Shown: positions 1 through 16,749 of the stretch, piece after piece | How the letters are laid out: each line of letters opens with the position of its first letter | Position numbering within the stretch: the stretch's first letter is position 1 | From: a virus | Strand: one strand, 5' to 3' | Virus record (IMG/VR): IMGVR_UViG_3300048834_000351 | Span: 1 to 20,678 of that record | Length of the DNA: 20,678 bases | Notes under the pieces: model-generated | Seen by the model: only the letters and a program-made list of their open reading frames with translations | What the model was told of the DNA's origin: nothing | Databases searched by the model: none | Translations under genes and position numbers: made by a program

Positions 1-2131
1 GCCAGTCGGTTGAAGTGAAGGGTGAACCAGAGCATCCAGTTACAAACCATGAACCACTGAAATACGACACATCCCCCGTCACGGTTGAATTGTCCGAAAA
101 GCAGCAATCGTGGCAGGGGGTTTCGCTCACACAATCGAACACCTGGCAATCCGAATCATCGCAACTGGTCTTATCTGGTGCCCCGGCGTCCGTCGCTCCC
201 TCGGGCAACTCGTCCTCGCGCGTGTTGGCGGCGTTGATGTAATAGCACTCATCGCCGATCTTCTTGACGCTCTTTCCGCTTTGAATCCAGTCGATCACCC
301 GCGCGTAGTAAGTGCTGGTCGAATCATCGGAGCATTTGAGGTACTGGATAAACTGCACGTCCGCCAAACAGTGGGAGCATGAATAGTAAAGCGGCCCGCT
401 GGTGTCGCCTCCACCCATCGACCGCAGGGAAGTCACTTCGTAGCAATTTGTTCCCTCCCGGATGATCTTCCCGGCAGCGCCGGAGTATCGGGAGACGTAC
501 TTGCTGACCAGGCTCCCGGTGCGGCAGTCTTTCAGTTGAAGCTGATCCCAATCATCATCTGGTGGCGTGGGCGGCGGGGGATTATCCGGCGGTGGGGGAG
601 TGGTGTCCGGCTCACATTTTCCCGTATCGCCGTTGTAGGTGTATCCGCTGGCGCAGCCGGGGTCTGTTCCCGGCGGTGGATTGGCAACACATTGGACGCC
701 ATTCCAGTAATATCCATCGGCACACGGCTCGGAAATATCAACGCACGCCGTTCCGTCCCAATACTCACCATCCGCGCAATCGTGGTCGTCGGGTTCGTCG
801 GGGATGCACGTTGACCCATCCCAATGCCAGCCCGTGGCGCAGGGCGTTGGATCATCATCATCGACGCATGTTGAGCCGTTCCAGTGCTGGCCGTTGGGGC
901 AGTCCGGTGGTTCGTTGCCATTGTTGGCGCGGCAGTCGGCACAGTTCTGAAAAATCTTTTGCGGCACGATCAGCAACGCCGAAGATGGAATAGCCTTGGT
1001 TGCTTCCGTTGGCTCGACGTAAACGCATACCCCCTGATAGGAAAAGTAGAATCTCTTCGGCGGCAGGTTGCATTCGGCAACCCACAAATCAGGCAAGCTC
1101 ACCTTGCCTCCTCCCCCACAGCGCCGAACCTTCACCCCCTGGGTGACGGTGGCGGCGGGTCCGCACAGGCAATCCGTACAGGTTTCAAACTGGCTGGCGC
1201 AGGCGGTAAAAATCCATGCGGTTGACGGCCGGGAAACGATCTCGGCGTCGGATGAGATTGAATAACAGAATCCCCCAGTACGCCAGATAAATGTCTGACC
1301 GGCCGGCGGCAGCTTCCCCTGGGGAATCCACAACGGGCGGGCGTTCTCGCTGCCTTCCTGGCCGTCGCAAAGAGTGGCCATGGCACCCGAAATACAATCG
1401 TTGCAATTGGTAAACTCGCTGTCGGGGTCGATCACCTTGGCGCCGGCGGGGATGGCGGCGGCGTAAGAATTGGGATAGGCCGAATAACAGACCCCCTCGT
1501 ACTGGAAGAAAACGGGGGCGGCTGGGGCGGATGAGAGCCATACCTGTTTGGGTGCGGTCCAAAAGAATTGTCCCGCGCAAATGGTGGGCGCGACTCCCCC
1601 GGTACAGGCGTCCATGGTGGGGTGGCAATCGTAATAATTGACGATGACCGCTGCCCCGCCGAATCCGGTACACGTTCCCGGATCAACGTAGTAGCAGTCC
1701 CCCCCGAATCGGAAATAACATCGGGCCGCAAGGCCATTGGGTGGGCAGGTGATCCATACATTGGGCAGCGGCCCCACCGCGTGCAGGCCTAATTCTCCCC
1801 CCGGCAATGGATGTTCATCGCCACCTGGCCCGCCTCCGTGATGGTCATTGGTGGCGTAGGAATCTTTGCAGTTCGTGCAATCGGTGAACGTGCTCCCGGT
1901 GGTTTTCAGGGTCACGGCCCCACTGGGCGGTGCTGCCGGCGTGGCTGAAAAATCAACCGAATAACACCAGTCCGCAAAACCAAAATATCGGATCGAGGGT
2001 GAGGGCGTGGGGGTGATGTTCTTCACCCAAACGTCCGGGGCACCGTCGGCTTGTCCAGAACAGACCGTGGCCTCGATATAATCGTAGCAGTCGGGAGAGC
2101 AATCGGGGCAGGCGGGAAGAATCGTGGCCAT
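1..2131 (-). CDS. Cysteine-rich modular repeat protein, probable tail-tip or host-contact protein (C-terminus beyond window)
   Basis: I translated this frame by hand. It is open without a stop from the ATG at 2131 to the left edge, giving at least 710 residues. The ATG shares its A with the TAA of the upstream gene (TAATG), so translation is probably coupled, and a GGGGAG sits about ten bases upstream. There is no signal peptide. Residues 20-400 hold about five loose modules with the order Cys-Gly, VW or LW, a hydrophobic stretch, G-x-CY or CV, then FxxCxxC. Examples are CY at 56, 146, 215 and 289 and CxxC at 85-88, 243-246, 318-321 and 397-400. Residues 411-506 hold five short CxxGxxWNGxxC-type repeats. 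A proline-rich hinge follows at 511-525. Further CY/CxxC modules follow (CY at 563 and 629, CxxC at 585-588). The repeats and the position after the tape measure suggest a virion surface protein. Whether the cysteines form disulfides or bind metal cannot be told. Confidence 0.8.
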   Translation of the reverse strand, partial: MATILPACPDCSPDCYDYIEATVCSGQADGAPDVWVKNITPTPSPSIRYFGFADWCYSVDFSATPAAPPSGAVTLKTTGSTFTDCTNCKDSYATNDHHGGGPGGDEHPLPGGELGLHAVGPLPNVWITCPPNGLAARCYFRFGGDCYYVDPGTCTGFGGAAVIVNYYDCHPTMDACTGGVAPTICAGQFFWTAPKQVWLSSAPAAPVFFQYEGVCYSAYPNSYAAAIPAGAKVIDPDSEFTNCNDCISGAMATLCDGQEGSENARPLWIPQGKLPPAGQTFIWRTGGFCYSISSDAEIVSRPSTAWIFTACASQFETCTDCLCGPAATVTQGVKVRRCGGGGKVSLPDLWVAECNLPPKRFYFSYQGVCVYVEPTEATKAIPSSALLIVPQKIFQNCADCRANNGNEPPDCPNGQHWNGSTCVDDDDPTPCATGWHWDGSTCIPDEPDDHDCADGEYWDGTACVDISEPCADGYYWNGVQCVANPPPGTDPGCASGYTYNGDTGKCEPDTTPPPPDNPPPPTPPDDDWDQLQLKDCRTGSLVSKYVSRYSGAAGKIIREGTNCYEVTSLRSMGGGDTSGPLYYSCSHCLADVQFIQYLKCSDDSTSTYYARVIDWIQSGKSVKKIGDECYYINAANTREDELPEGATDAGAPDKTSCDDSDCQVFDCVSETPCHDCCFSDNSTVTGDVSYFSGSWFVTGCSGSPFTSTDW
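614..901 (-). repeat. Five tandem CxxGxxWNGxxC-type repeats
   Basis: Within the cysteine-rich gene, residues 411-422, 431-442, 452-463, 470-481 and 493-506 each start and end with Cys. The first four share C-x2-G-x2-W-[ND]-G-x2-C with exactly ten residues between the cysteines. The fifth is looser, with twelve residues between cysteines and Tyr in place of Trp. The units are separated by acidic or proline-containing linkers of five to eleven residues. The protein pattern is clear; the DNA has diverged between copies. Confidence 0.85.
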
Positions 2132-2952
2132 TAGGAACAGCTCCCCCCAACCGCGTTCTCATAAGAGAACAGCCATTCGGTCACACCGTCGCAATTGACG
2201 ATTGGCCACGCCTGAACCACCGGCTCACCCTGAACCGGCTGGATGGTGATGGTGCCGGGCAATGAATCGATGTCGATAGAGTTGCCCTGCATCCCCGATG
2301 CGGAATTGTTAGCCTCCACGGAGTTGTAGGCGTACCCATCGGTGGCGGATGAACGGCCGCCGCTTTTGTCCTGCCATATCCCGTTGTGAACCAATTCTTG
2401 TTCGGTCCATGAATAGCGCCAGGCGTTGTCGCGGTCCGTGATCGTGGCGTAGCTGGTGATTTTGATCCAGGTGGGGCCGGTGCCGCTGCCGCCAGAATGA
2501 AACCAAAAGAACTTCGCGGGCGGGTTGGTGTTCCTTGCAATCGCAAAAATGTGAACCAGTGTCCCTGCATTCAGGGTGTGCGTTCCAGTGGAGGCAAAGG
2601 CGTCACCTGCGCCAAGGGACAGCTCGGATATGTTTGTTGCGGTGATGTAGCCCTTGTCCAGATCGGCAACAGACACCGCATTCGCAGTCACATTCAACAG
2701 CTTGGCGGTTGTGGCGGCGGCCGCGTCCAACCGCTGAACCCAATACCTCGAATCGGTGTAATCGCTTTCGGCGTTGGGGCCGGTGCTTCTGACAACCCCC
2801 ATGAAATGACCGATGGCCGATGACGTTGGAATCGGCTGCATCCGCTCATTGAGTTGCTTTTTGAGTTCGTTGATCTGTGCGGCCATCTCATTCAGATAGT
2901 CCGCAAACAACAGATCGCCGGGCTTGGATAAGGCTATGTCCTGTTTGTCCAT
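2131..2952 (-). CDS. Virion-associated protein with N-terminal coiled coil, function unknown
   Basis: This 273-aa protein is not a family I can name. Residues 15-42 form a short amphipathic helix rich in Leu, Asn, Lys and Glu (LNEMAAQINELKKQLNERM), likely a trimeric or dimeric coiled coil. The rest is rich in Gly, Ser, Thr and aromatic residues and looks all-beta. This layout is common in phage tail-tip and fibre proteins. It is preceded by a small hairpin and lacks an obvious Shine-Dalgarno sequence. Its stop overlaps the start of the cysteine-rich gene by one base, so the two are probably made together. The C-terminus carries two cysteines (NCDG near residue 253 and Cys272), which recalls the neighbour. 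A tail or baseplate role is inferred from position only. Confidence 0.75.
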   Translation of the reverse strand: MDKQDIALSKPGDLLFADYLNEMAAQINELKKQLNERMQPIPTSSAIGHFMGVVRSTGPNAESDYTDSRYWVQRLDAAAATTAKLLNVTANAVSVADLDKGYITATNISELSLGAGDAFASTGTHTLNAGTLVHIFAIARNTNPPAKFFWFHSGGSGTGPTWIKITSYATITDRDNAWRYSWTEQELVHNGIWQDKSGGRSSATDGYAYNSVEANNSASGMQGNSIDIDSLPGTITIQPVQGEPVVQAWPIVNCDGVTEWLFSYENAVGGSCS

Positions 2953-2998: not shown

Positions 2999-3790
2999 CT
3001 AGATGACCGAAGGCAATCCAAGCCCGTTTAAGTCCATCGTGTTCACAAGCAAGTCATTGACATATCCGTTTCCTGATGGGGTTAGCAGGTCAAAGCTGGG
3101 TTCAATGTCGGCGGGAACTTCATAGGTCGCATTGTCCCGAAACAGCATCGTGTGAAGATGCGTGTGTTCGTCGTACTCAATCGCTCCGCAGAATTTGTAA
3201 CCCGGCCGATACCTGATTTTCTCAATGGTCAAATTCATCACCTTCCACGTCCACTTAGGCTGCCCACGGAAGGAGACCGAATTGACCTTGTTCAGATACA
3301 CCAGCTTGTTTTCAGGATCATCGGGGACTTCCATGCGGAAGGTCAAAACACCATAAGCCCTAGTGGTTCGGCTTCTGCCCAGTTGCGTTGCCACTGTTCC
3401 ATCGGGCGAGGTGTAACTGACCTTAATCAGCTTCCCATCCGCATATCGTTCCGTTTCAATTTCACGTGTGGTCCCATTGAAGGCCAGAACCGTTTCAGGT
3501 GTGTTGCCGAAATCAGGAGTGCCATAGGTGACGTAGACCTTGACGCTGGTTTTCGACCTTGCAGGGAACGGCTTGGGTCGTATGCGATTGACGAAAATCG
3601 CCCCATTGTTGGGATGGGGTACGTTGTAGGCGACCCCCTTCTGCCCCGCCAGTTCGTCATACGCCTGTTGCCAGATACCTGGACCTGGGGTTAACCCGTA
3701 AACGCGGAATGCCCGGACCTCGATCCTCCCGTTGGGGTTGATTTCAGACTCCGCACCGTCTATCAAATCTTCAACAATTGTGACTGGCAT
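2999..3790 (-). CDS. Beta-rich phage structural protein, probable tail or baseplate component
   Basis: This 263-aa protein is unrecognised at family level. It begins at ATG 3790; there is no clear Shine-Dalgarno sequence, as the upstream bases are pyrimidine-rich. The sequence reads as alternating short beta strands (for example IEVRAFRVYG, KVYVTYGT, LTFRMEVPDD, SVSFRGQPKWTWKVMNLTIE) with no signal peptide, membrane segment or catalytic motif. It is the first minus-strand gene after the plus-strand insert, so it must either be reached by readthrough from the tape measure gene or have its own promoter in 3791-3873. A tail-tip or baseplate role fits its place after the tape measure gene. It shows no distal-tail-protein signature that I can identify. 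Confidence 0.75.
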   Translation of the reverse strand: MPVTIVEDLIDGAESEINPNGRIEVRAFRVYGLTPGPGIWQQAYDELAGQKGVAYNVPHPNNGAIFVNRIRPKPFPARSKTSVKVYVTYGTPDFGNTPETVLAFNGTTREIETERYADGKLIKVSYTSPDGTVATQLGRSRTTRAYGVLTFRMEVPDDPENKLVYLNKVNSVSFRGQPKWTWKVMNLTIEKIRYRPGYKFCGAIEYDEHTHLHTMLFRDNATYEVPADIEPSFDLLTPSGNGYVNDLLVNTMDLNGLGLPSVI

Positions 3791-3873: not shown

Positions 3874-4548
3874 ATGCGTACTGCTATTGCGATTTTACTG
3901 GCCTTTGTCTTTTCCGTTCCCGCGATTGCTGCCGATCCGCCCAAAAGTATCGAAGAGGCTCAGGCTGAATTGGATCGAAAGCAGGCCCAACGAGAAGCAG
4001 CGGCAACCCAACCGGCGAATATCAGTCAAGGCGAGTTGGACGCCTTGCGGGCAGAGGTGATGCGATTGAGGGCGGAAAATGCCAGACTCAGAGCGGAAAT
4101 TCAATCCCTTCGACAGGATTCATCAAAGCAATACCAAGCCCCCCATAAACCCAAAACAACCTTCACGGATCGCGCCAAAGAGGCAACCAAAAGGGGCGTT
4201 TTGGTCATGGAAGATGGGAGGCCATATAGAGCGAAATTCAACAAAAAAGATGCTGATGAAACACTGGCGCAGGCTCAAAAAATCGACAAAGCAATACAAT
4301 CCTATCTAAACACCCACGATGTTGCCGATGACGTGGCGGAGTCCCTTTGGGCTGGAAAACCTGCCATCGGAATGGACCGTGAGGCGCTTTTAATTTTTGG
4401 GCAATTGGGAGTAAAATCTGAAACAACCAATGCCCAGATAGCAAAGTTCGTTCCATGGGACCCCACGCCGCGAACATATGAAGATACGATATTTTACTGG
4501 CTAACATTAGAAGAGAATGTGGTCATTCGTGTGACAACAGGCAAATGA
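3874..4548 (+). CDS. Secreted coiled-coil protein with possible BamE/SmpA-like C-terminal domain; candidate moron
   Basis: This 224-aa protein is the only convincing plus-strand gene. Residues 1-20 are a classic signal peptide (basic MRTA, a hydrophobic core, then cleavage after AIA before DPP). There is no lipobox Cys. Residues 25-85 are a charged, heptad-like coiled coil (AEVMRLRAENARLRAEIQSL). Residues 90-140 are a basic linker. Residues 150-224 contain a W-x-GKPAIGM-x-REALL-x(5)-LG pattern followed by a short beta-rich end (FYWLTLEENVVIRVTTG). This layout recalls BamE/SmpA-type periplasmic domains, though the match is by eye. It sits antisense inside the tail operon, has its own RBS, and its second half looks more AT-rich than the flanking genes. 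These are the usual signs of a moron acting on the host envelope. Its stop lies 3 nt from the converging tape measure stop, with no room for a terminator. Confidence 0.8.
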   Translation: MRTAIAILLAFVFSVPAIAADPPKSIEEAQAELDRKQAQREAAATQPANISQGELDALRAEVMRLRAENARLRAEIQSLRQDSSKQYQAPHKPKTTFTDRAKEATKRGVLVMEDGRPYRAKFNKKDADETLAQAQKIDKAIQSYLNTHDVADDVAESLWAGKPAIGMDREALLIFGQLGVKSETTNAQIAKFVPWDPTPRTYEDTIFYWLTLEENVVIRVTTGK

Positions 4549-4551
4549 TTA

Positions 4552-6765
4552 TCAGTTTAACCGAGCGCCATTGCCGCCATTATCCTTAATGTCCTTCAGG
4601 TAGCTGGCGATCAATTTCAGGATTTCCGTATCCTCCTGTTTCTTATCGCTGAATGGATCAGAAAACGCCATGGCGCGAACATCCACTTCGGTAGCCCGTC
4701 CGCCGGATCGCGGCTTTAAGATGCGGTCCTGCATCGACTGGAGTTCGGCTTCCTGAGTCGCGATCAATTGCTGTCGATTCTCTGGGGCAACAGCACGAAG
4801 CTCAGACCCCATTCCCGCAAGAGCGCCGATCATGCCGGCGGTGCGGTCGTGGAACTGCCCCCTAACTTGTGCTTCGGCAACCCTGGCTTGATATCCCAAA
4901 ACAATATCCGCCTGCTGTCTGCCGTGCACCTCTTCCATTAGCCGCCGCTGGCTATCAATCTCATCCTGAGCCGCCTTCTTTAGTCGCGGGTCTTCAATGG
5001 CATCCAGTTTAGCTTTCGCGTTCGCCTCGAACAGTTGCTTTTCGGCTTCGTAATCCCGCCGCTGGATGCGAAGTTCATTGGCGGAAGTGTTGGCCCTGGC
5101 AATCGCAACGGATTCATTGATTTGCCGTTCATGGTTGGCAACGATGACCGAACGCTCCGCCATGCGTCGGGTGGATTCGTTTTGCCGCTCTTCAAGGTCC
5201 TGGATCAGCGCCAGCTTTGCTTGGGTCGCGTTATCGAACGCCTGAAGATCGGCTTCGTAGTTTTTCCGCTGAATGCGAAGTGTTGCCTCAGACGTTGCGG
5301 CAACAGCGGAGGCAGAATCGACGGCACGCTTTTTCTTTCGCTCTTCGGCTTCCGTTTCGTGCTGCTCGGCCTGTCTGGCTAGTGCATCCTCATTCTGTGC
5401 GGCGATATTCCTTCGCTCCTGGGGATTAACCACACCTACCAATTTCTGCTCGCCAGCAACCTTCAATTGAAGTGTTTCGGCATTCTGACGAAGTGCAAAG
5501 GCGCGATCGCCGTCTCCCGAACGCGCCGCCCGCGAGGCCAATATCTGAGCATTGGAAACCCGTGTTCCCTGCTCAGTGGCATAAATGGAGAATGCCTGAC
5601 GTTCTGACTCCTGCTTTATCTGGAGGTCGCGAATCTCTTCTTCCTGTTTGACGATGTTGATGTCACCAGACAATAACGAGATTTTCTTGGCGTCACTGAT
5701 CCGCTGTTCCGCTCCCAACCGTATCGCCCCAACCGTGTCCCCACGCAGGCCGGCGATGTTGGCGGCTTGGGAGCGACTCAATACGCGGGATGCCTCTCCG
5801 GCCGCAACCCGCTGGTTCTCATCATCAATAACCCTCTGTTGTGCCGTACTGGCACCCGTAATCTGATCCGCCACCTGCGCGGTAATCCCCAGCACGGGAA
5901 TACTCTTGGTGAATTGGATGGTGTTCAATCGGGCTTGCGCCTGATTTGCCACATTCGACGATGATCGCAGGCGGCGGTTTTCTTCGCTGAAGTAATCACC
6001 AGCAAGCCGTGCTCCCTCAGTGACGACAAAGCCCGCCGCCGCGAACCCAAACGCACGTTCAAGCCCACGCTGAGAGAATGGATTGAAGCTGGCAAGACCC
6101 CGATGCCCCTCCCGTCCGCCGGCCCGTCCGGATGGACTGTTTGGCCTCGCCACCATATTGCGAGTGCTAGCAAATCTCTGTGTGGCTTCAGCCTCTAAAT
6201 CTCCGGTTCCAACAAGCCGCGTCTGGATGTCGAGAGTTAGCTTGTTCTGGTGCAACTCCGCACGGGCCTCGCGAATTACCCCCGCAAGATGGTTGCGGAA
6301 TGCGCGGTCGTCAACGCTTAATTGCGCCACCCGCTCGCCCCGTGCGGTAAGACTTCGGGTCTGTGGGCCAAGGATGCGGCTATCTTCCGCATATTTGATT
6401 TTGGCCTGAATCTCAATCTGTTCCTGCGCGGCACGCTCTTTAGCCGTGCGGACCATCTCCGCCACGCGGACCTTGACCGCTTCGGGGCTGAATTTAACCC
6501 GTGGTTCAAAAACAAACGACTTCTCGTTGATGAGCCGGACCTGTGCCGCAAGCTGCGCCGATGAACGCTCCGCCTCGCGGATGGCCTTATTCATGGCGCG
6601 GGTGATTTGACCCTCCTGAAAATCCATTTCAGGCTTGATCTTGATCACATTGGGTGAACGCGCAATGATGCGCTTCACCTCTTCAAATCCCGGCTTCATG
6701 GTGGATGGGTCCACCGTCACCGGAATTGAAATACCACCCGCGTCTCTTATAACCCCATCAGCCAT
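4552..6765 (-). CDS. Tail tape measure protein (short, coiled-coil rich)
   Basis: This 737-aa protein follows the frameshifted tail assembly chaperone, the standard place for the tape measure gene, which sets tail length and is ejected with the DNA. It is largely helical and rich in Ala, Glu, Arg and Gln. Residues 50-180 and 370-640 look like coiled coil, and residues 237-256 are a modest hydrophobic stretch (FGFAAAGFVVTEGARLAG). Two copies of a LRIQR-x2-YEA unit start at residues 496 and 565, 69 residues apart. There is no peptidase or lysozyme motif. By the usual rule of about 0.15 nm per residue, the tail would be about 110 nm. The start ATG at 6765 overlaps the end of the frameshifted chaperone by 8 nt. 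The call rests on position and composition rather than on a recognised domain. Confidence 0.8.
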   Translation of the reverse strand: MADGVIRDAGGISIPVTVDPSTMKPGFEEVKRIIARSPNVIKIKPEMDFQEGQITRAMNKAIREAERSSAQLAAQVRLINEKSFVFEPRVKFSPEAVKVRVAEMVRTAKERAAQEQIEIQAKIKYAEDSRILGPQTRSLTARGERVAQLSVDDRAFRNHLAGVIREARAELHQNKLTLDIQTRLVGTGDLEAEATQRFASTRNMVARPNSPSGRAGGREGHRGLASFNPFSQRGLERAFGFAAAGFVVTEGARLAGDYFSEENRRLRSSSNVANQAQARLNTIQFTKSIPVLGITAQVADQITGASTAQQRVIDDENQRVAAGEASRVLSRSQAANIAGLRGDTVGAIRLGAEQRISDAKKISLLSGDINIVKQEEEIRDLQIKQESERQAFSIYATEQGTRVSNAQILASRAARSGDGDRAFALRQNAETLQLKVAGEQKLVGVVNPQERRNIAAQNEDALARQAEQHETEAEERKKKRAVDSASAVAATSEATLRIQRKNYEADLQAFDNATQAKLALIQDLEERQNESTRRMAERSVIVANHERQINESVAIARANTSANELRIQRRDYEAEKQLFEANAKAKLDAIEDPRLKKAAQDEIDSQRRLMEEVHGRQQADIVLGYQARVAEAQVRGQFHDRTAGMIGALAGMGSELRAVAPENRQQLIATQEAELQSMQDRILKPRSGGRATEVDVRAMAFSDPFSDKKQEDTEILKLIASYLKDIKDNGGNGARLN
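4996..5280 (-). repeat. 69-residue internal repeat in the tape measure protein
   Basis: Residues 491-520 and 560-590 of the tape measure protein align without gaps (TSxxxLRIQR[KR][ND]YEA, then AKLxxIxD). The DNA also matches visibly (around 5043-5075 and 5250-5281), 207 nt apart, which is exactly 69 codons. This points to an in-frame duplication within the rod region. Confidence 0.75.
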
Positions 6766-8822: not shown

Positions 8823-9251
8823 TCAATTCACACTGAATTCATAAATTACGGACCATTGCCAGACATCCTTGCCCCCGCTGCTGGCGTCATCTTCCAGCTT
8901 GGCGGGTATCGGTTCTCCGATTCGTCTCATGCTGTAGTTGGTGGCCCCGCTCAACGTCAGGTTCGTATCATCAAAGATGTTGATGAACGCCTTGATCGCG
9001 TTGTAGGTCAGGTCATGTCCGGAAGCCGAATCGCTCGCACACCCAACCGCCTTGAAGACAATCGTGATGTCGGAACTGATCTTGTTTGCATACGCATCGG
9101 TCAGGGGTCCGCCCACAACTTCGCTGACGATGTACGGCATACTCGCCCCCGGTTGCGCCGTGTCTCTGGACATTCCGCCCGGAAATGCGGAGGTCAGACC
9201 CGCGTTACCCGTGAACTGGGTATAGATGGCGTGGAGCAACTTAAGGATCAT
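8823..9251 (-). CDS. Tail completion / tail terminator protein (DUF3168-like)
   Basis: This 142-aa protein begins with an amphipathic helix (ILKLLHAIYTQFTGNAGL). A MPYIVSEVVGG beta strand follows, then a SSDITIVFKAVG strand, a central helix (LTYNAIKAFINIFDD), and a final WQWSVIYEFSVN strand. That order matches DUF3168 and lambda gpU-type tail completion proteins, which cap the tail tube and join it to the head. Its ATG overlaps the stop of the gp10-like gene by four bases (ATGA), and that gene pair is the usual one in HK97-type neck regions. The length is typical for the family. Confidence 0.82.
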   Translation of the reverse strand: MILKLLHAIYTQFTGNAGLTSAFPGGMSRDTAQPGASMPYIVSEVVGGPLTDAYANKISSDITIVFKAVGCASDSASGHDLTYNAIKAFINIFDDTNLTLSGATNYSMRRIGEPIPAKLEDDASSGGKDVWQWSVIYEFSVN

Positions 9252-9742
9252 TGGCCGGCAAGGATTCGGATAATCTCATCGCGTGAAGCGTCAACGGCTG
9301 GGCTGGCGAAGGGTCGCGGTTCGACAAACACGCCTTTTTCACGCTGCTGGGCGTAGGCGGCTTGTTCCTGTTTGGCCTGCGACCGCAACTCCTGTTCGGT
9401 GGCTTTGAGGCTTTTGTCTCCGGTGGTCTTTCGCAACTGTCTGAGCTTGGACGCCTGCTTTCGGGTAGACCTGGCCTTTGAGCTTCGCCTTGATCCCACC
9501 TTGTGGCCAAACTCCACAAAGGGTGCGTAATACTTTTGCACCACGACCTTGAAGCCAAGCGGTTTAATATCAACCCGCGTGGCCGCTCGCATCGCTCCGG
9601 TGCGAACCGGCTCGCGGGCGATGACCTGCGCCAAGAGGTAATTGGCGGCTTTCTCGATTCGAGCGGTGATGTTCGCTTCAACTTTCTGTTGTGCGAATTC
9701 CGCGTCGAAATTCAGTTTTGTGACAAAGGGTACGTCGGCCAT
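9248..9742 (-). CDS. HK97 gp10-like head-tail/tail completion protein
   Basis: I chose ATG 9742, two bases after the stop of the preceding gene, giving 164 aa; an in-frame ATG at 9916 would overlap that gene by 172 nt. The protein shows the HK97 gp10 pattern: an N-terminal helix region (FDAEFAQQKVEANITARIEK), then PVRTGAMRAAT at residues 45-55, a strand ending YAPFVEFGH at 72-80, and a C-terminal PRPFASPAVDASRDEIIRIL. Family members act at the head-tail joint during tail completion. Residues 84-127 form a basic Arg/Lys/Gln-rich helical insert longer than in compact relatives. The next gene encodes the DUF3168-like partner, with an ATGA overlap. Confidence 0.85.
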   Translation of the reverse strand: MADVPFVTKLNFDAEFAQQKVEANITARIEKAANYLLAQVIAREPVRTGAMRAATRVDIKPLGFKVVVQKYYAPFVEFGHKVGSRRSSKARSTRKQASKLRQLRKTTGDKSLKATEQELRSQAKQEQAAYAQQREKGVFVEPRPFASPAVDASRDEIIRILAGQ

Positions 9743-12419: not shown

Positions 12420-12608
12420 TTACTTGCGTTTTCCACGACCCACATACAGCTTGCTTGCCGGCGACTCGACCACCTTTACTTCGGGTTCCTCTGTCGGCTC
12501 GATAATGTGGTAATCAAGCATCGTTTTGATGGTCCCCGCATCGTAGGTAGTGGGAACCAAATCACCTTCACGGAACTGTCGATGGATTCGCTTGAAACGG
12601 TAGGTCAT
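12420..12608 (-). CDS. Small basic hypothetical protein
   Basis: This 62-aa protein overlaps the preceding gene by four bases (ATGA at 12608) and ends six bases before the connector gene, so it fits the operon spacing. It is basic at both ends (TYRFKRIHRQFREGD and YVGRGKRK), with a short helix (DAGTIKTMLDYHIIEP) and an acidic middle. The family is not recognised. A minor head or neck accessory role is possible from position. Confidence 0.65.
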   Translation of the reverse strand: MTYRFKRIHRQFREGDLVPTTYDAGTIKTMLDYHIIEPTEEPEVKVVESPASKLYVGRGKRK

Positions 12609-13759
12609 GCTAATTCCTTCGGCGCACCTTCACGCCGGTAAGTGTGTACATACTGGTGGATCGGTTGCAGTTCCGGACCCGGCCAACTCACCATCAACTG
12701 CAAGTGGCCCAGCCGAACGTGATTCGCCTGAAACAATTGCAACCCCGCCTTCTCAAACTCCCGCCAGAAATGGATATCCTCATCGATCCGTCCATCCTCC
12801 CACGTCCCTTGCGGGTCGGGATGATGCCAGAACCACGGCTTGGCCATCTTCTGCAAAGCGGCAACGCGGATCAGTGTTAAACCAAAATGACCCGTGCTGA
12901 CCGGAAGTAATTCTGCATCGATGTCTTCACGCTTCACTCCCGACAGGTTGCGGCCATCCTCTCCCCGGATGGTCAACAGGACAGATTCCCTATCCCTGCC
13001 AACCTGCATCCCCATCACCGCGTCAACTTGAGGATTGTCGAGCATCAACCGATACAATTCCCGCACGTTGTCATTGGTGAAGATCGTGTCATAGTCGATG
13101 GTCAGGATGAACTTTGCTCCGTTGCCGATGGCTTGTTCCATCGCCACGGTCATCGTCTGGCCCCAGAACACCCCCTGGCGAACGAAGGTGGGGATTTTCA
13201 GCTTCGTCACCATCTCCAACATGCACGTTGCCTGATCGGTAAAGGCCAGTCGTGGCATGGACAGGACGGCTTGCGCGCCTTCAAGGCGGGCTTCCTGCTG
13301 AGAGGGTTTGCGGCCCATCAGGTTGAGGCTGATGGGGAGGCTGGAACAATCGCTGATGATCGATTTCCATCGACAGATACCCGTCAACCCCGCCATCTGC
13401 ATCAGGCCGCGTAGCTTCTGCTCGTTGAAGATCGCGCCATGATGATCTTCGTCATCGGTGTGACTGCCCATCACATAGGCTTCGATGGGAACGTCTTCTC
13501 CCGATTCGTATTTTTCACAAATACGGTCAAAGTCGGGAACTGCGACCTTCAGCACCCCACCAGGCTTCAAGGTGCGAACCCAGTCTTTTAGAACATCGAG
13601 CGTCTGTTGGAAGCTGAAATGCTCCAGAACATGGCTTGCGTAGATTTCTTCAACCGATTCATCCGCATATTCCAGCGGGTAGGCTTCCGATCCTAACTTT
13701 CGGTCTACGCTCGTATATCCAGGAAGCTCGCTTTGGCCCGCGCCGATATTCAGTCGCAT
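12605..13759 (-). CDS. Methyltransferase-glycosyltransferase fusion enzyme
   Basis: This 384-aa protein has two enzyme-like halves. Residues 1-150 resemble a class I SAM-dependent methyltransferase: motif I LNIGAGQ at 3-9, an acidic residue in SVDR at 17-20, SHVLEHF at 42-48 and LKPGGVLKVAVPDFDR at 64-79. Motif I is slightly degenerate (GAGQ rather than GxGxG). Residues 165-384 resemble a GT-A glycosyltransferase: KFILTIDYDTIF with a DxD-type DYD at 222-224, and an acidic DEDIHFWREFEKAG at 326-339. It may add or modify sugar on a virion protein, the host surface or nucleotides; the position between decoration and neck genes favours a virion target. A GGAG seven bases before ATG 13759 serves as RBS. 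Enzyme classes are likely; the substrate is unknown. Confidence 0.82.
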   Translation of the reverse strand: MRLNIGAGQSELPGYTSVDRKLGSEAYPLEYADESVEEIYASHVLEHFSFQQTLDVLKDWVRTLKPGGVLKVAVPDFDRICEKYESGEDVPIEAYVMGSHTDDEDHHGAIFNEQKLRGLMQMAGLTGICRWKSIISDCSSLPISLNLMGRKPSQQEARLEGAQAVLSMPRLAFTDQATCMLEMVTKLKIPTFVRQGVFWGQTMTVAMEQAIGNGAKFILTIDYDTIFTNDNVRELYRLMLDNPQVDAVMGMQVGRDRESVLLTIRGEDGRNLSGVKREDIDAELLPVSTGHFGLTLIRVAALQKMAKPWFWHHPDPQGTWEDGRIDEDIHFWREFEKAGLQLFQANHVRLGHLQLMVSWPGPELQPIHQYVHTYRREGAPKELA

Positions 13760-15906: not shown

Positions 15907-16749
15907 CTAAAGGTAGTAGATTCGGCCCCGCAACTTGGCCAAAAGTTGATCCGCCGCGATGGCTGATGCTTTGGCTGCGTCCAGGGTCGGCTTGTCAAAA
16001 TTCATGTGATAGACGCGGGTTTTCCTGATCGGAACTTCTGCCGCCGTTTTCATGCCATCTCGGCAATCGGCACAAAATAAACCGTCCTCGCCGTCCATCT
16101 CCTGCATATCATCCATCGGAAATTCTTTGCCGCATTTAGCGCAATTCCCGATGGCCGCTTTCTGTTCCGGTGAGTCTTGTGGAGAATCAGCATTGACGGG
16201 TTGTTCAGACTTGGTGAAGCATTTCGCGGCGATATCTTGTGGGATAAACCCCTTTGACACTGCCGTCGCCACTGCCTCTTGATTGCAGGGGATGGTGACA
16301 CAACCCACCTCGAACAGTTCCCACTTATTTGTTACCCTGCGGCATCCAGCGCCGTATTTCTCTAAGTCACGATCCGTCGCCGGCCGCGACTCGACACAAT
16401 CGAAACCCACCGAAAAGGCCGATAAGACCTTCTGCTGGTACATGCTGAATACGACGTCGGGGAACCACTCTTCATTTTCGGGGTGATTCTCCGGTCGCGT
16501 GGCGAACACGATCTTAGCGCTGATGCTTTCCGCGTCCCGTTTAATTGCCGTGATTTTCCCCACCGGCAGCGAATAGTAATCGTGCATCCAAGTGACGATG
16601 GGGTTTTTCTCGTAGTCCTTGGTATTGCACCCTTGCGGGATCAATACCTCCCCATCGCGATCCACGGCAATCGTGCTGATCTTGGCCATGACGGCACGCT
16701 CGCCATCAACCACTGAGACATCCGCCGAAAACGCCTTATGCTGGATCAT
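15907..16749 (-). CDS. HK97-family prohead protease with C-terminal zinc-ribbon-like segment
   Basis: This 280-aa protein carries the prohead protease fold in residues 1-165: ISTIAVDRDGEVLIPQG, catalytic-type His56 in NPIVTWMHDY, the Ser motif LSAFSVGF (Ser113 the likely nucleophile), and WELFEVGCVTIPCN at 143-156. It would cleave capsid scaffold regions inside the prohead. The unusual part is the C-terminus: CAKC at 203-206 and CADC at 226-229 form a CxxC-x19-CxxC pair like a zinc ribbon, followed by a helical end (LDAAKASAIAADQLLAKL). The usual family length is about 160-250 residues. Its ATG overlaps the stop of the small upstream gene by three or four bases. It is followed by the capsid gene, the expected partner. 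Confidence 0.9.
   Translation of the reverse strand: MIQHKAFSADVSVVDGERAVMAKISTIAVDRDGEVLIPQGCNTKDYEKNPIVTWMHDYYSLPVGKITAIKRDAESISAKIVFATRPENHPENEEWFPDVVFSMYQQKVLSAFSVGFDCVESRPATDRDLEKYGAGCRRVTNKWELFEVGCVTIPCNQEAVATAVSKGFIPQDIAAKCFTKSEQPVNADSPQDSPEQKAAIGNCAKCGKEFPMDDMQEMDGEDGLFCADCRDGMKTAAEVPIRKTRVYHMNFDKPTLDAAKASAIAADQLLAKLRGRIYYL

Follow-up and report, generated by a model that had tools for sequence, protein, structure and literature searches.

What is the long, cysteine-rich protein encoded at one end of this viral DNA, and what would its repeated cysteines do for the virus? The window, which is the whole stretch of DNA analysed here, is a linear virus record of 20,678 bases. At its end, a minus-strand open reading frame runs from 2131 to 2, encodes 710 residues and is still open at the contig end. 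The protein contains 51 cysteines (7.1%), compared with about 1% for most of the other minus-strand frames of at least 140 residues in the window. No tRNA or Rfam match was found anywhere in the window.

A repeated cysteine module and its full-length homologue

The repeat unit of the 710-residue protein is about 65 residues long. It has a strand ending in Cys 1, a central hairpin carrying Cys 2 (in the pair CY) and a closing aromatic-xx-CxxC on a short helix, and this full layout is present in modules 1, 3, 4, 5 and 6. A full-length homologue with the same architecture, L285 (L285:3298-5595:-), was found on a 42-kb contig, G001 (IMGVR_UViG_3300032173_000014). The features of the window protein, all on the minus strand, are as follows.

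2..2131, minus: 710-residue multi-module protein rich in cysteine, truncated at its C-terminus by the contig end (open reading frame; homologue L285)
1868..2083, minus: module 1, residues 17-88 (leave-one-out score 30.6 bits; outside profile)
1775..1867, minus: Gly/His-rich linker, residues 89-119, placed as the Gly-rich linker of L285 (sequence)
1604..1774, minus: module 2, residues 120-176, degenerate (15.6 bits, i-E 0.011, profile of window protein plus L285)
1394..1600, minus: module 3, residues 178-246 (leave-one-out 36.3 bits; AlphaFold model)
1169..1390, minus: module 4, residues 248-321 (leave-one-out 22.3 bits; tandem AlphaFold model)
932..1141, minus: module 5, residues 331-400 (leave-one-out 40.2 bits)
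614..901, minus: short CxxGxxW[D/N]GxxC repeats, residues 411-506, a second repeat type absent from L285 (repeat count; weak partial CBM_14 match)
545..613, minus: Pro/Asp-rich linker, residues 507-529 (sequence)
368..544, minus: module 6, residues 530-588, the form closest to the wider viral family (outside profile 22.3 bits, 0/500 Cys-fixed shuffles)
146..355, minus: module 7, residues 593-662, ending in C-x4-C (outside profile 14.0 bits, 0/500 shuffles)
2..145, minus: Cys-rich start of a C-terminal domain, with about 135 residues at this place in L285 (comparison with L285)

The preliminary description had listed seven copies of the unit. Modules 1, 3, 4, 5, 6 and 7 stood. Module 2 turned out to be degenerate, keeping only 'GDCYYV', with no first cysteine and a C-x6-C end, and module 7 does not end in CxxC. 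The opening strand 'yyxlxxC' of each unit and the block at residues 411-506 had been overlooked. This block contains four strict CxxG..W[D/N]GxxC copies and a relaxed one, and its unit differs from the main module. It weakly matches part of the C..G....C core of CBM_14 (peritrophin-A, PF01607), at 22.5 bits against a cut-off of 22.1; the full domain has six Cys, and the best stretch covers only positions 28-48 (21/53).

IMG/VR viral contigs were scanned with a DNA pattern for CYx[VI]...[FY]xxCxxC...CY. Most matches were due to chance, but a subset were long frames with repeated units, which also showed features beyond the pattern: a hydrophobic strand that closes with a Cys some 25-35 residues ahead of CY and, in many cases, a Gly preceding the hairpin. 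The controls were shuffles with the cysteines fixed in place, because the pattern had selected the cysteines, and for the same reason E-values within the module set are conditional. In leave-one-out HMM tests, modules 1, 3, 4 and 5 were recovered at 22-40 bits, and 0/500 Cys-fixed shuffles scored as high. A profile built only from the N-terminal modules missed module 6 (-0.7 bits). With a profile of 52 outside modules, taken from contigs other than those of the window and L285, the window protein obtained 43.4 bits (E=2.6e-11); the highest score among 1000 Cys-fixed shuffles was 10.1, so that 0/1000 reached the window protein. With this outside profile, modules 1, 3, 4, 5, 6 and 7 each beat their own 500 Cys-fixed shuffles. 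In the reverse direction, the profile of the window protein plus L285 matched L290 at 6.9e-10 and L263 at 4.4e-7. Judged from sequence, modules 1, 3, 4 and 5 are certainly real repeats, and modules 6 and 7 are supported as real by the outside sequences. These results bore out the original observation of a repeated cysteine module in the long frame.

L285 is itself uncharacterised and matches the window protein with a BLASTP E-value of 1e-33 (28% identity over 434 residues). Both proteins consist of module 1, a Gly-rich linker, modules 2-5, a linker, modules 6-7 and a C-terminal domain, and both have the C-x4-C end of module 7. In pairwise scores, modules 1, 3 and 5 of the two proteins pair one to one. 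In contrast, L285 lacks the CxxGxxWDGxxC block and has a Gly/Pro linker in its place. L285 runs about 135 residues past its last module, and therefore the window protein is probably missing roughly 100 residues at its C-terminus.

A viral module family and its predicted fold

The window protein is not a lone oddity, and its repeat unit is widespread among uncultured viral contigs. Iterated profiles collected 158 modules in 61 frames from 59 loci (with the window and L285 counted in). The number of modules per phage ranges from 1 to over 30, and the flanking domains also differ widely. One 60-kb contig (G409, carrying L343) has 26 modules in frames of up to 3843 residues, and one 105-kb contig (G410, carrying L189) has 34 modules in frames of up to 3752 residues. 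In L316, the modules are joined to a LamG lectin-like domain. A giant module-bearing frame (L189:2-5422:+) also contains a zinc-peptidase-like motif, HEMGHTFGLHH.

The family could not be linked to any known one. When the 710-residue protein was searched directly against viral contigs, genome contigs and phages (tblastn), Pfam, PHROGs and PDB sequences, nothing was found, and no Pfam or PHROG match was present at E<=1. A consensus of the module, used only as a lead, matched no phage, Pfam or PHROG family, and the modules of L316, L343 and L290 found no named phage by tblastn. Terminase relatives of the window phage carry no modules. Profile A5, which matched 6/6 virus records as a positive control, had no match in 1563 bacterial genomes drawn from the phyla of Hymenobacter, Planctomycetota, Anaerolineae and Acidobacteria genomes (sets of 395 and 392 genomes at E<=1e-5, and of 390 and 386 at E<=1e-4). 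The profile of the window protein plus L285 was likewise without a match, both in 13 genomes of host type and in 392 genomes from the phylum to which a Planctomycetota MAG belongs. Open-access papers, searched briefly, gave no name for the module family. The 'cysteine-rich repeats' of rusticalin were considered as the same unit and rejected, as their Cys pattern differs. The unit had been said to fall in no named family, and this agrees with the Pfam, PHROG and PDB-sequence searches, in which the modules were assigned to no known domain. The module family is thus undescribed in the libraries searched, while the modular phage adhesion device is already known as a kind.

Structure prediction, which had been proposed as a check, gave a repeated fold. 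AlphaFold2 modelled module 3 from an alignment of 65 modules with a pLDDT of 94.1 and a pTM of 0.80, and modelled modules 3 and 4 in tandem from 19 rows with a pLDDT of 89.3. In the tandem model, the order of short strands, a hairpin at CY and a short helix at CxxC appears twice. The models therefore predict one repeated, mostly beta fold for the module. No convincing solved-structure match to the models was found in the PDB, which does not prove a new fold: the best Foldseek match had E=3.3, and in VIA-align no structure reached Z>=2 with the single module, while the tandem model had one match (Z 2.4, 46 residues, rmsd 3.3). In BFVD, the single module found weak matches (best TM 0.61, E 0.65, in a 1279-residue entry) and the tandem model found no useful match. 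The weak matches are long uncultured-phage proteins and may be family members.

The tail region and its variable slot

On the minus strand, the window reads from the terminase (20606) through portal, protease, HK97 capsid and connectors to tail genes near coordinate 1. Homologues were found for terminase, portal, capsid, head-tail adaptor and neck, and the tape-measure and tail-tip assignments are inferred from position rather than family matches. Three of the genes ahead of the module protein are listed here.

4552..6765, minus: probable tape measure protein (position, length and composition; no PHROG match)
2999..3790, minus: protein of the tail region, encoded after the tape-measure-like gene and before the cassette (position; no family match)
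2131..2952, minus: upstream partner gene, whose C-terminal ~110 residues are also present in L366 and, as the end of a larger protein, in G001 (sequence comparison)

The module protein gene lies downstream of the tape-measure-like gene. Its start overlaps the stop of the upstream partner gene as TAATG, and the two genes are translationally coupled. Other loci have a similar setting. In L263 and L290, the module protein follows shortly after a tape-measure-like gene, and in L100 and L130 large proteins encoded in tail regions carry modules at their C-terminal end. The phage-tail setting suggested for the protein thus received support from module proteins lying beside tape-measure or tail genes. 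L290, L263 and L342 resemble the window protein in having about six modules of this family in tandem, but their modules are fused to an N-terminal domain of about 190 residues. This domain was compared with the upstream gene of the window and no detectable kinship was found.

On G001, the gene just upstream of L285 ends in the same ~110-residue domain as the upstream gene of the window (39% identity), but it is longer. Its central part gives, by eye, the impression of a tail-hub protein, although no Pfam or PDB match was found for it. The head genes of G001 and the window have no BLASTP match at 1e-3, and therefore the two-gene cassette moves between different phages. In L366, the upstream partner domain occupies the same position and is followed by an unrelated 339-residue protein, and therefore this position is a variable slot. 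From the gene context, the tail location of the window protein is well supported, and from this location we infer that the protein is part of the virion.

Several neighbouring genes have features of their own. Small and mid-size proteins adjoining module or partner genes frequently carry either a CCC motif close to the N-terminus or the motif CLECVEKHLG (L263:8611-9213 and 9217-9582, L342:2371-2988, L366:6314-7330), and those of them that were scanned match no Pfam family. In the window, the only clear plus-strand gene (3874-4548) has the tape-measure-like gene on one side and the tail cassette on the other. Its product begins like a signal peptide (MRTAIAILLAFVFSVPAIAADP), continues as a coiled coil and could possibly act on the envelope or in superinfection exclusion. 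Between the head genes, 12605-13759 (minus) encodes a methyltransferase domain fused to a family-2-type glycosyltransferase (PF08241 and PF13632, both above Pfam cut-offs), with a possible role in surface or DNA modification. The head maturation protease (15907-16749, minus) has a C-terminal zinc-ribbon-like stretch, CAKC...CADC, with 10 cysteines. On G001, a run of genes that look by eye like glycosyltransferases (L361:17680-21459, continuing into L362) lies on the strand opposite to the tail genes.

Cysteine chemistry and proposed role

The preliminary description asked whether the modules bind metal or form disulfides. Each module has four conserved cysteines and a single CxxC. Across 81 non-redundant modules, first strands (beta-1) with an additional Cys co-occur with an additional Cys after CY (7/11 versus 6/70; Fisher p=1.2e-4), and these cases represent only about 3-4 independent lineages (L290/L342, L310 and L343). 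Such a paired gain is expected for a disulfide, because a disulfide is gained as a pair, and the pattern is suggestive of disulfide bonding. Between L263 and L290 (86% identity), 37/37 cysteines are conserved and dN/dS is 0.135. For disulfides within a phage tail, phage Milano offers a published precedent (PMC10811340). Disulfides are likely in the modules, and they are favoured over metal because extra cysteines are gained in pairs, each module has a single CxxC and extracellular-type domains occur alongside. The balance thus leans to disulfides.

We give slightly better than even weight to a disulfide-stabilised modular tail-tip or adhesion protein, encoded in a variable slot among the tail genes of an HK97-type tailed phage. 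This would be a late structural protein at the tail tip or in attached fibres, with about seven small, mostly beta modules held by their cysteines and joined by flexible Gly- or Pro-rich linkers, a centrally placed CxxGxxWDGxxC block and another domain at the C-terminal end. Disulfides would form after the virion has left the reducing cytoplasm and would give a stiff, protease-resistant rod. Through the array, the phage would offer surfaces for binding the host envelope or its polysaccharides, and modules would be gained or lost as hosts change. The adhesion role is proposed by analogy, and the main modules match no known carbohydrate-binding domain. A broader proposal is tentative and falls somewhat short of an even chance: an undescribed beta module, restricted to viruses, stabilised by disulfides and with a small fold of its own, would be an exchangeable bead of phage tail adhesins, ranging from single copies to more than 30 modules per virus and spreading by cassette exchange among otherwise unrelated uncultured phages.

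The modules could instead be purely structural: beads locked by disulfides, which make the tail or its fibres stiffer or decorate them and do not touch the receptor. The tail gene context, the strict Cys conservation and the failure to recognise a ligand-binding domain in the modules all speak for this. A precedent is the Agrobacterium phage Milano, in which a disulfide network gives the tail mechanical strength (PMC10811340). Our reading of the window protein would share with Milano the use of cysteines as disulfides in a phage tail, but Milano has inter-subunit disulfides in sheath, tube and baseplate, whereas the window protein has small repeated modules. The variable copy number and the flanking domains (LamG, short Cys repeats) better fit host-facing proteins, as does a slot that is exchanged between phages, and we regard purely structural beads as rather unlikely.

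Less probable still is a metal-binding tail-tip protein in which the four cysteines of each module, one CxxC among them, hold zinc or an Fe-S cluster. At the tail tip of phage lambda, gpL carries a [4Fe-4S] cluster, as do its homologues (PMC10721106), and gpL, like the window protein as read here, is a cysteine-bearing siphophage tail-tip protein. However, gpL uses four cysteines (C173, C182, C205 and C212) for one Fe-S cluster and has no tandem array (PMC10721106). The module Cys spacing is unlike that of gpL, and no Pfam or PHROG match to the gpL-type family was found at E<=1. A zinc ribbon has two facing CxxC-type knuckles, whereas the modules have one CxxC each, and only 1/65 modules matched, at E=0.65, which is not above chance. 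The paired extra cysteines and the lack of a convincing match in the PDB fold searches also argue against metal.

That the frame is Cys-rich low complexity or spurious, with repeats arising by chance, is highly improbable: identity among the modules is low and modules 2, 6 and 7 score weakly within the protein, but the shuffle controls, the full-length homologue L285, purifying selection in relatives and the confident repeated fold refute it.

Tail-tip and fibre proteins decide the host range of phages and are mostly unannotated in uncultured ones. With a named profile for this module, annotators could mark very large Cys-rich proteins of viral metagenomes as probable devices for tail adhesion. 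For structural biologists, the module is a small domain that is predicted with confidence and lacks a convincing solved relative, and it is a case in which disulfide chemistry in phage tails can be tested.
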